A DNA stretch of 64,000 bases, from assembly GCA_903926465.1 (NCBI GenBank), contig CAIYJE010000046.1:1-64000 (forward strand). The letters are read 5' to 3'. Source of the stretch: an uncultured Planctomycetales bacterium. GTDB lineage: Bacteria; Planctomycetota; Planctomycetia; Isosphaerales; Isosphaeraceae. The notes under the pieces were generated by a model that was given only the letters and a program-made list of their open reading frames with translations, was not told the origin of the DNA and ran no database searches. This document shows positions 16,846 through 20,658 of this stretch, piece by piece. The translations under genes were made by a program, and so were the position numbers. The number at the start of each line of letters is the position of its first letter. Positions within the stretch are counted from its first letter, which is position 1.

Positions 16846-17250
16846 CTAGCCGATTAGGCTCTCCCCAACCAGCGCCAGAGCCTCTTCGGTTCGGGGTGTC
16901 GATAAGGCCACCACGCCCCAGCCCTCGGCACGGCGAACAATCCGAACGCTCAACAAGGGGATATCGGCTTCATAAAACCGTCTGGCCAGGGCGGCCAGTG
17001 CACCCGGGTGGTCTTCCACCCTTACCAGCAACGCATCTTCGCCCACTGCAGAAAAACCGGCCGCAGTCAGGGCCCGGATGGCGTCGTTATAGCGATCAAC
17101 CGTGAGCAGGGCCACCACGGTCCCGCCCAGCGTGTCTGAATCGAGCGTCTCAATATTGATGTGGTGGCCGGCCAGGGTTTCAACCAGCTCGGTGATGAAC
17201 CCGGGAGAAGCCTCGCCAACCACACTGATTTGCTTCCAGGGGGTGCTCAT
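16846..17250 (-). CDS. Tandem ACT-domain protein
   Basis: The 134-residue protein consists of two ACT domains (about 5-68 and 72-132). The first reads ISVVGEASPGFITELVETLAGHHINIETLD; the second reads LLVRVEDHPGALAALARRFYEADIPLLSVRI. ACT domains bind amino acids and give allosteric control. Its ATG overlaps the stop of the upstream histidine decarboxylase gene (ATGA overlap, 17247-17250), so the two are translationally coupled. A role as a ligand-sensing partner of the decarboxylase, or in histidine metabolism, is a reasonable inference. No catalytic or DNA-binding segment is present. Confidence 0.85.
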   Translation of the reverse strand: MSTPWKQISVVGEASPGFITELVETLAGHHINIETLDSDTLGGTVVALLTVDRYNDAIRALTAAGFSAVGEDALLVRVEDHPGALAALARRFYEADIPLLSVRIVRRAEGWGVVALSTPRTEEALALVGESLIG

Positions 17251-18401
17251 GAGTGGGCCTCCACCGGCTCGAGCGCAGCAAGGTCGGCCGTGAGCCGGTC
17301 AATGTGGTTACGCGTGACATGGGGCATGGTAATCACGTGGCCGATCTGATCATGGATGGCAATCTGCCACTTGCTGGTGATTGAGGCGGGCGGCCGATCA
17401 AATACAACAATGGGCGAGTTTTCATGCCGCCAGGGGTTGCGCCCCACCGCTTCAAGCTGGTCGATGGCATAGTCGGCCATCTCCAGGCAGTTTGCCACCC
17501 GTTCCCGGAACCCAGCCCGGCCAATCGACCGCAGCGCATACCACAAAAACAGAGCCGCCAGCCCAGACCGTGAGCCTGAGAGGGTGGTATCGAGTGAGCC
17601 AATGTAGTCTATACCGCGTGCAATCCGATCGACGTGGGTCTTTTTGGCCAGGGCAATTCCACAAGGGAACGGGGCCCCGATGAACTTGTGACCGCTGATG
17701 GCCAGGCTGTCGATGCCGGCGGCGAAGTTCCAGGGTTGGGGGCGATCGACCCAGGGCAAGATCATGCCGTGGAGCGCAGCATCGGCATGGATGTAATGCC
17801 GGCTAATCGCCAGGTCGGAGAGAATCTGACGGATGCCGGCGAGATCGTCGATGGCGCCGGTCATGGTGGTGCCGATGTTGGCGAACAGGATCGGCGGCAC
17901 GTCTCGATGAATCCGCAAGGTTTCCCGCAGGTCATCCAGGTCCATTGAGCCATCGGGCCGGCTCTTGATCATGATGTTCCGGACATGCAGGCAACGAAGG
18001 ATTTTGTTGACCGAGTAATGGGTATCTTCTGAGTAATAGACCATCCCATCCGGCAGCGTTTCTCGCGCCAGGAACAAGCCGTACAGGTTCCCTTCGGTGC
18101 CGCCGTTGGTGACGTAACCCCAAGACGCGTGTGGTGGAGCGGCCGTGAGGTCCATGAACTGAGCCAGAACCTCACGCTCAAAGTCGTGGGTGTTCAGGTG
18201 GTAATTGCTCTCCACAAACGGGTCGCCAACATTGTTGGTAGAGAACTCCAGGAACCGATACAGCGGCGAGTAATCAAAGTTGGCCGTGCACGGGTAGCCG
18301 ATGAACCCTTCCCGTTCCGCCGTTAACCGCTCGTAAAGCGCATCCAAACGCCCTTGGTCATTCACCGAGAGCCCGTGAAAGTCTTGTTCAAAACCACCCA
18401 T
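17247..18401 (-). CDS. hdc: PLP-dependent histidine decarboxylase
   Basis: A 384-residue group II decarboxylase most like the bacterial PLP-dependent histidine decarboxylases in length and motifs. GFIGYPCTANFDYSPLYRFL lies near the N-terminus, then SWGYVTNGGTEGNLYGLFLA (about 93-112), HADAAL (205-210) with the PLP-contacting Asp207, and SGHKFIG with Lys239 as the predicted Schiff-base lysine. It would convert histidine to histamine and CO2; activity on a related amino acid cannot be excluded. The ATG at 18401 is chosen over one six codons upstream because GGAGGA (18408-18413) lies six bases before it. The ACT-domain gene overlaps its stop codon. Confidence 0.87.
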   Translation of the reverse strand: MGGFEQDFHGLSVNDQGRLDALYERLTAEREGFIGYPCTANFDYSPLYRFLEFSTNNVGDPFVESNYHLNTHDFEREVLAQFMDLTAAPPHASWGYVTNGGTEGNLYGLFLARETLPDGMVYYSEDTHYSVNKILRCLHVRNIMIKSRPDGSMDLDDLRETLRIHRDVPPILFANIGTTMTGAIDDLAGIRQILSDLAISRHYIHADAALHGMILPWVDRPQPWNFAAGIDSLAISGHKFIGAPFPCGIALAKKTHVDRIARGIDYIGSLDTTLSGSRSGLAALFLWYALRSIGRAGFRERVANCLEMADYAIDQLEAVGRNPWRHENSPIVVFDRPPASITSKWQIAIHDQIGHVITMPHVTRNHIDRLTADLAALEPVEAHS

Positions 18402-18583: not shown

Positions 18584-20488
18584 TCACATTCGCTCAACCG
18601 TGTTAATACCGAGCAGGCCGAGGCCGTTCTTGAGCACACGCGCCGTTAGGTCGGCCAGGGCCAGGCGGCTGAGCTTGGTCGCTTCGGACTCGGCCTTCAG
18701 CACGGGGCAGTTTTCAAAGAAAGCGCTGAAGGCGTTGGCCAGCGTGAACAGGTAATCGGTAAGGATGTTGGGCTTGAGTTCCGACCCGGCCAGGGCCACG
18801 GCCTCTGGCCAGCGCAGGATCTGGAGCCCGAGCGCTCGCTCGGCGGGATGGTCGAGCGCGATGGAAACACCCGTGGTGCGGAACGTCTCGGGGGCAAGCT
18901 CTCCCTTACGGAAGATGCTGCGGATGCGGGCGTAAGCATACTGGATGTAGGTGGCCGTGTTGCCATTCAGGGCCAGCATCTTATCCCAGTCGAACACGTA
19001 GTCGCTCAGGCGGTTCTGGGAAAGGTCGGCATACTTGAGTGCCCCCATCCCCACGATTTCGGCCACCTGGGCCCGCTCGGCCTCATCGAGTTCTGGGCTG
19101 TTCTCATCGACCACCTTGCGGGCCCGGGCCACGGCCTCGTCTAGCAACGATTCCAGGCCAACCGTATCCCCGGCGCGGGTTTTGAACGGCTTGCGATCGT
19201 TCCCCAGAATGGTGCCGAACGCCACGTGATCATACCGGGGGTGGGTGTATCCCCAGCGGCCAGCCACATCGAACAAGGCCTTGAAGTGGTCCCCCTGGCG
19301 ATGGTCGACCACGTACAGAATGTGGTCGGGGTTCCATTCCTGGACCCGGTAGCGAATGGTGGCCAGGTCGGTGGTGGCGTAGTTGTAGGCACCATCGCGT
19401 TTCCGCACGATGAACGGGGCCTTCATCCCTTCGGTGAAAACGACGGTGGCCCCTTCGCTCTGGGTGGCCAGCCCCCTGCTCTCCAGGTCGGTCACCACGT
19501 CTGCCAGCATCGGGTCATAAAAGCTTTCGCCAAGCGCCACGTCAAAGGTCACACCGAGCCGCAGGTAGACCCCCTCAAGCGCACTCAGGCAGAACGGCAT
19601 GAACTGATCCCACAGGGCCCGGTTCTCTGGGTCGCCGGCGTGCAGCTTGACGGTTTCCAGGCGTGCGGCCTCTTCAACCTGCTTGGCGGCAGCCTCGGCC
19701 GTTGTAAGTTCGGCCAGACTGGTCTGGAAACGAGTTTCCAGCTCGGAAAATCGAGGGTCATCGGCTCCACTGATTGGCTGGCCTGTTTCGGCGGCATATT
19801 TCTGGACCGCCTCGCCATGCTTCCCTTTCTTTTCCAGGGCCAAGGCATCGCCCAGTTGCTCGCGGAGTTTACCGGGTGCGCCAATTTTCGACTGAACCAG
19901 GCGGTAGAGCGACGACAGGTGGCTCACCGGATCGGCGGCGTAAGCCTGATCGTCTCTCAGGTTTTTCCAGCCGTAAAGGATCATGCCGAACTGGGCGCCC
20001 CAGTCACCCAGGTGATTGTCTTTGATCACGCGATGCCCGAGCGCGTGCAGGATGCGGGCCAGGCTATCGCCGATGACGGTTGAACGCACGTGCCCAACAT
20101 GCATTGGCTTGGCGACGTTGGGCGAGGAAAAGTCGATGACCACGGTCTGCGGGGCCACGGCGAGGGGCAGGCCCAGGGTTTCGTCGGTCTGGAGCGAGTT
20201 CAGCACGCTGGCCAGCCAGGCATCTTTGAGCCGAACGTTGAGAAAGCCGGGGCCGGCAATCTCGGGTGTGTCGGCCATGGGGTCCAGGTTCACACGGCCT
20301 GCAACCTCTTGAGCCAGAGCGCGAGGGTTCGCTCCAGCGGCCTTGGCCACGCCCATGCACCCGTTGGCTTGGTAATCACCGAACTTCGTGTCGGTGCTGG
20401 GTCGAACGGCCGCGGCAAAGGTTACAGGGTCGCTTCCGGCCGGGGCAGCCTGGGCAAACCGATCCCGGAGCGCATCGAGAATGTTCAT
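18584..20488 (-). CDS. argS: Arginine--tRNA ligase
   Basis: A complete 634-residue class I arginyl-tRNA synthetase. The N-terminal tRNA-binding domain (about 1-100) is followed by the HIGH-type signature in SSPNVAKPMHVGHVRSTVIG and GHRVIKDNHLGDWGAQFGM. Further motifs are HFKALFDVAGRWGY and the KMSK-region equivalent FGTILGNDRKPFKTRAGD. The C-terminal DALR anticodon-binding domain ends LLGINTVERM, typical of ArgS. The start is the ATG at 20488 (MNILDALRDRF); the upstream extension in the same frame is not homologous. It is essential for charging tRNA-Arg. There is no close operon partner. Confidence 0.97.
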   Translation of the reverse strand: MNILDALRDRFAQAAPAGSDPVTFAAAVRPSTDTKFGDYQANGCMGVAKAAGANPRALAQEVAGRVNLDPMADTPEIAGPGFLNVRLKDAWLASVLNSLQTDETLGLPLAVAPQTVVIDFSSPNVAKPMHVGHVRSTVIGDSLARILHALGHRVIKDNHLGDWGAQFGMILYGWKNLRDDQAYAADPVSHLSSLYRLVQSKIGAPGKLREQLGDALALEKKGKHGEAVQKYAAETGQPISGADDPRFSELETRFQTSLAELTTAEAAAKQVEEAARLETVKLHAGDPENRALWDQFMPFCLSALEGVYLRLGVTFDVALGESFYDPMLADVVTDLESRGLATQSEGATVVFTEGMKAPFIVRKRDGAYNYATTDLATIRYRVQEWNPDHILYVVDHRQGDHFKALFDVAGRWGYTHPRYDHVAFGTILGNDRKPFKTRAGDTVGLESLLDEAVARARKVVDENSPELDEAERAQVAEIVGMGALKYADLSQNRLSDYVFDWDKMLALNGNTATYIQYAYARIRSIFRKGELAPETFRTTGVSIALDHPAERALGLQILRWPEAVALAGSELKPNILTDYLFTLANAFSAFFENCPVLKAESEATKLSRLALADLTARVLKNGLGLLGINTVERM

Positions 20489-20658
20489 GGTGGCGTGCTT
20501 GCTTGGTCTTGTCTTGATTTGTGTTCTGGGGATCAACAACCCGAGCACCGGGCGTGAAAGAGCCAGATTCTATCAATTTGACGGAGATTCGGAAATTCCA
20601 CCGCTGAATGGTGGGAGCAATTCGTCTATCAAAGACTCAGGAGCAGTACCGCTGTCTT

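Follow-up and report, generated by a model that had tools for sequence, protein, structure and literature searches.

The window, by which we mean the whole stretch of 64,000 nucleotides analysed here, belongs to a genome of 6.9 Mb (G000), in which the genes under study lie on contig C46. Two genes on the reverse strand form a close pair, a putative amino acid decarboxylase whose reading frame starts with ATG at position 18401 and, directly downstream, a gene for a small protein. A preliminary description of the locus had noted the ATGA overlap of the two genes and a second gene made of two ACT domains only; both details proved exact when compared with the open reading frames, the profile matches and the structure model. 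The upstream neighbour is argS, at a distance of 182 bases from the enzyme gene. All features are compiled in Table 1.

Table 1. Features of the decarboxylase-ACT locus (window coordinates) and of the general ACT-pair protein at two other loci
Feature	Position	Strand	Basis or remark
PLP-dependent group II amino acid decarboxylase, HDC/serine decarboxylase family	17247..18401	(-)	384 aa; profile matches
Two-ACT-domain protein, proposed regulatory subunit	16846..17250	(-)	134 aa; profile matches, model, fold search
ATGA overlap: enzyme stop TGA and ACT start ATG	17247..17250	(-)	4 bases
argS (arginyl-tRNA synthetase), upstream neighbour	18584..20548	(-)	same strand as pair
ACT domain 1 (ACT1), aa 6-70	17041..17235	(-)	secondary structure of model
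ACT domain 2 (ACT2), aa 73-131	16858..17034	(-)	secondary structure of model
D80-H-P-G83 loop of ACT2, putative ligand loop	17002..17013	(-)	conservation
C38 (GYPC), aligned with AtSerDC Tyr111 / CsAlaDC Phe106	18288..18290	(-)	published specificity position, by alignment
PLP-binding lysine K239, SGHK motif	17685..17687	(-)	invariant in alignment; corresponds to AtSerDC Lys314 by alignment
General ACT-pair protein, planctomycete genomes	L023 1450-1911; L104 1468-1938		

The small protein matches the ACT model PF01842 in two stretches (37.9 bits, cut-off 27), which identifies it as an ACT protein, and also matches PF13740 (28.2 bits, cut-off 23). On ACT_8, the 'ACT domain pair' model (PF19571), it reaches 18.5 bits and stays below the cut-off of 23.5, which L081 (42.3 bits) and L084 (24.0 bits) exceed; with the AHAS ACT model it scores 17.7 bits, below the cut-off of 27. 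The AlphaFold2 model (pLDDT 90.9, pTM 0.79) contains two consecutive beta-alpha-beta-beta-alpha-beta units. A sequence search of the PDB with this protein delivered chance-level matches only. In the fold search, the stand-alone ACT pairs BT0572 (2f06) and YdjB (9vp8) came out best (Foldseek 8e-9 and 2e-7), followed by the regulatory subunits of aspartate kinase and AHAS. Both ACT pairs superimpose on the window protein with VIA Z values of 11.8 and 13.0 and an rmsd near 10, which probably reflects a different placement of the two halves. We know of no decarboxylase partner for BT0572 or YdjB.

Within ACT2, the residues D80, P82 and G83 are invariant at all 24 unfused loci described below. The corresponding loop of ACT1 is degenerate in L004, the nearest relative, as well as in the fusions, so that ACT2 is the more likely ligand site. 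Both genes are under purifying selection, with dN/dS values of 0.025-0.18 for the ACT gene in six comparisons and of 0.024-0.11 for the enzyme gene; in the comparison of the window with L004, synonymous sites are near saturation.

The preliminary description had suggested looking for the pair across planctomycetes and would have given up the idea of a functional link had the pair been found only here. It recurs at 24 distinct unfused loci including the window and in fused form at ten others, eight of them cyanobacterial. In the family of the window genome, the enzyme was found in 2 of 45 genomes; the second one (G004, locus L004) shares 76% identity in the enzyme and 64% in the ACT protein, the order argS-enzyme-ACT and the 4-base overlap. 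An even sample of the phylum (392 genomes) gave three enzyme matches, namely the own genome and two distant proteins of 33-34% identity, and the pair is therefore uncommon. In the named genome collection, 12 loci with 61-68% identity were detected, of which 11 are planctomycete and one, from Petrachloros mirabilis, is cyanobacterial; at 11 of the 12 the ACT pair follows the enzyme. At the remaining one, L032, only 14 bases lie between the enzyme gene and the contig end, and the genome has the ACT gene near the start of another contig.

A further sample was drawn from the class to which G439 belongs and comprised 396 genomes, with an enzyme threshold of E 1e-60. Here 22 genomes were positive for the enzyme: 16 with a separate adjoining ACT gene, two with a fused gene and four, with the loci L076, L077, L082 and L083, in which no ACT gene was found. 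The 16 genomes account for 17 places, as G437 has two pairs (L027/L063 and L084), whose enzymes are 67% and 59% identical to that of the window. Each place was counted once, and L062-L064, L066, L067 and L053 were dropped as repeats of the same genomes. At all 24 unfused loci the ACT gene lies directly downstream on the same strand, and 19 of the junctions show exactly the 4-base overlap. The others are spaced at -23 (L028), +15 (L027, L031) and +130 bases (L033), and at L071 the nearest start is 60 bases downstream. The spacer of about 130 bases at L033 (5683-5815) between the enzyme and ACT genes contains repeated GTTCAATGTTCAAGG-like text; in L032, a close relative of L033, the contig ends just as this stretch begins.

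No ACT match was detected in the examined stretches of L076, L077, L082 and L083, of the cyanobacterial loci L054-L061, of the distant L025 and L026 and of the plasmid references L085-L088. For L076, L077 and L082, with enzymes 50-61% identical to that of the window, an ACT gene is absent within about 1.5 kb, so the enzyme can exist without an ACT partner. Just downstream of the enzyme gene, L076 and L082 carry a gene on the opposite strand that resembles a GDSL esterase, as judged from the translation. The idea that a further conserved gene might reveal the pathway was rejected: none is shared across the loci compared, although a small gene could be missed, as gene calls were mechanical and some reading frames are wrong. 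The argS gene is shared by the window and L004 only and is no general part of the pair; neighbouring genes are not common to the loci beyond close relatives.

At ten loci (L038, L074, L075 and L118-L124) the enzyme and both ACT domains are encoded in one gene in the order enzyme-ACT-ACT. Eight of these belong to a single cyanobacterial order and two (L074, L075) to genomes of planctomycete class. The first example, L038, is a frame of 588 amino acids in which the enzyme continues into the ACT pair. In the order of this cyanobacterium, the enzyme is present in 8 of 29 genomes, and all eight have the end of the enzyme and the ACT sequence in one reading frame; the genes of L122 and L123 begin where their contigs do, and those of L118 and L124 contain a break in frame at another point. 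That the two parts are separate elsewhere and fused here is good evidence that enzyme and ACT pair work together. The structure model of the L038 fusion is of low confidence (pLDDT 65.3, pTM 0.58), was computed from an alignment of enzyme rows only and shows nothing on contact.

The same 396 genomes were searched with a profile built from 17 ACT rows. All 17 ACT places that scored 161-207 bits adjoin the enzyme, and their 16 genomes are all among the 22 enzyme-positive ones. None of the 374 enzyme-negative genomes contains an ACT protein of this upper group (Fisher p 6e-24, a value that is indicative only, since genomes of one class are related). The stronger point is the clean score gap, as the next match below the 161-bit group reaches 67.9 bits. 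The two fused ACT tails of this sample score low on the 17-row profile, and of their genomes only that of L075 is listed (53 bits). Taking the 396 genomes and the fused loci together, this ACT subfamily occurs linked to the enzyme, adjoining or fused, and was not found without it. Two members of the lower-scoring group were inspected (L023, L104): each is a general ACT pair beside a TrmL-like methyltransferase gene, as judged from the translation. The planctomycete genomes with this second ACT pair and its TrmL-like neighbour include that of the window, in which a general ACT pair on C67 (26% identity) is unlinked to the enzyme.

Distance matrices of enzyme and ACT protein are correlated (Mantel r 0.836 for 27 pairs, 24 unfused and three fused; 0.853 for 17 unfused pairs after near copies were dropped). 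The observed r was reached in 0 of 5000 permutations, which do not remove the effect of shared ancestry. In an enzyme tree of 49 rows, the three histidine decarboxylase (HDC) references cluster in a starred group (100/99) that does not include the pair enzymes. The latter do not form a single clade, and the ACT label changes five times, with L032 scored as lacking ACT though it is cut by its contig. Repeated gain or loss of the ACT part would explain this, as would poor resolution of the tree, in which 14 forks are open.

The larger protein of the pair is a group II PLP decarboxylase according to PF00282 (79.2 bits, cut-off 27). Its PLP lysine K239 and Y266, aligned with the catalytic Tyr341 of AtSerDC, are invariant in all 14 aligned enzymes. 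Since both residues are retained, a decarboxylase reaction is likely, and the enzyme looks active on an alpha-amino acid. The group II HDCs of Photobacterium phosphoreum (7erv), Vibrio anguillarum (pJM1) and a Klebsiella plasmid belong to the same family over the full length (45-47% identity) and share both the lysine and the tyrosine. Unlike the window, their plasmid loci L085 and L086 have no ACT partner within 3 kb. The plant enzymes AtSerDC (8jg7) and CsAlaDC (8jik) are members of the family as well, with 39-40% identity to the window enzyme. GDP and WQxA motifs are common to these serine and alanine decarboxylases and the window enzyme and are absent from HDCs; the aligned regions of the plant enzymes hold no ACT domain. 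The published account of the plant enzymes (PMC11407765) describes a zinc finger in them and places the specificity residue at Tyr111 of AtSerDC and Phe106 of CsAlaDC.

The preliminary description took the enzyme for a true HDC that forms histamine from histidine, in which case the ACT pair would sense one of these two compounds. We consider this unlikely, although several observations speak for it: the score on the 'histidine decarboxylase' model NF002748 (468.9 bits, cut-off 305), the HDC 7erv as nearest solved structure, the higher identity to the HDC references than to the plant decarboxylases and the 36 columns diagnostic for HDC versus plant enzymes, of which the pair clade shares 18 with HDC, eight with the plant enzymes and ten with neither group. 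However, the aligned part of the Arabidopsis enzyme AtSerDC reaches 462.9 bits on NF002748, so the model does not separate substrates, and the references from Photobacterium and the Klebsiella plasmid (592.5 and 606.5 bits) score about 125-140 bits above the window enzyme. At the specificity position the 27 pair enzymes have Cys (20), Val (3), Thr (3) or Gly (1), whereas all three HDC references have Glu. The HDC-typical YPE and GDW appear in the window as YPC and GDP, Glu38 or Trp61 was found in the three HDC references and in none of the 27 pair enzymes, and the Trp at 61 and His at 345 of HDC are replaced by Pro and Trp in 27 of 27. Taken as a whole, the pair clade is closer to HDC, yet this does not hold at the residue of known importance. 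A serine decarboxylase as in plants, with Tyr at the position of AtSerDC 111, is not indicated either, as the window enzyme has Cys. Moreover, plant proteins labelled as HDC turned out to be serine decarboxylases (PMC4177580). In our data the name 'histidine decarboxylase' is not supported beyond an annotation label, and histidine is one candidate substrate.

In the six cyanobacterial HDC-like proteins L054-L059 the PLP lysine is not preceded by His (the motif is ISGK or ISAK rather than ISGHK), and the specificity position reads YPY, like that of the plant serine decarboxylase; an ACT partner is absent within 1.5 kb of their genes. NF002748 accepts such YPY proteins, as well as the serine-specific plant enzyme, far above its cut-off. 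We rejected, as a role of the enzyme in general, a phosphatidylethanolamine bypass in which serine would be converted to ethanolamine in place of phosphatidylserine decarboxylase. The window genome and G004 are without PF02666, but enzyme-positive genomes have this domain in 18 of 27 cases and enzyme-negative ones in 10 of 28 (Fisher p 0.03), opposite to what a bypass would predict.

The explanation that appears probable to us is that the ACT pair serves the neighbouring PLP amino acid decarboxylase as a dedicated subunit for allosteric regulation. The idea of a dedicated sensor in the preliminary description has gained support from the conservation of the pair, the usual 4-base overlap, the fusions and the exclusivity of the ACT subfamily. 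Overlap and fusion fit a chaperone or stabilising role as well, since they suit any stoichiometric partner equally. A structural or assembly partner that has lost ligand binding could also account for the degenerate ACT1 loop, in the fusions and in L004; the invariant D80, P82 and G83 of ACT2, in turn, are expected of a ligand loop and need not be kept by a scaffold, and we rate such a role as somewhat less probable still than histidine decarboxylation. The notion that both genes are neighbours by chance or through shared transcription, with no joint function, we reject as very improbable. The order argS-enzyme-ACT does resemble a housekeeping neighbourhood, and a general ACT pair exists unlinked in the window genome. 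Against this stand the retention of the pair while its surroundings change, the ten fusions and the restriction of all 17 ACT places to the enzyme.

For the regulatory subunit we propose the following course of events. Coupled translation would provide matched amounts of both chains, which may then assemble into a complex; in several relatives both parts are joined in a single chain from the outset. The ACT domains, and within them most likely the conserved DxPG loop of ACT2, would then bind an amino acid that is the substrate or the end product of the pathway. The bound amino acid would alter the activity or the assembly of the decarboxylase. The combined evidence suggests that amino acid sensing by the ACT partner switches the decarboxylase.

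Comparable arrangements are found in other enzyme classes. The regulatory subunit of aspartate kinase (2zho, 2dt9) is a separate small chain of two ACT domains that controls a larger amino-acid enzyme and resembles the window ACT protein with a Foldseek E of about 1e-6 at 18% identity. It is an analogy in the way of working, as aspartate kinase is a kinase and shares no enzyme ancestry with the decarboxylase. The small subunit of AHAS (IlvH/IlvN type; 6vz8, 2f1f), likewise a fold match, is based on ACT domains, is encoded beside the catalytic subunit and acts in trans; AHAS, unlike the PLP decarboxylase, is a thiamine enzyme. Among PLP amino acid decarboxylases of the HDC/serine decarboxylase family, none with a dedicated ligand-sensing subunit is known to us. 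The parts are known, but a report on the combination of decarboxylase and ACT pair was not found in the literature searched, which left most subscription journals outside; the fused architecture may be recorded in domain databases.

More tentatively, and with less than even confidence, we suggest that the pair enzymes of Planctomycetota and one cyanobacterial order may represent a new class of allosteric bacterial amino acid decarboxylases. Amino acid sensing would fall to the two-ACT subunit or the fused tail, and the substrate would be neither histidine nor serine but an amino acid that fits the conserved Cys at the specificity position. For annotation, our results are a warning that many 'histidine decarboxylase' entries rest on a model blind to substrate differences. 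The natural fused and unfused forms can be used for biochemistry. If the proposed role is true, a separable ACT pair controlling decarboxylation would extend ACT-based feedback to a further class of enzymes.
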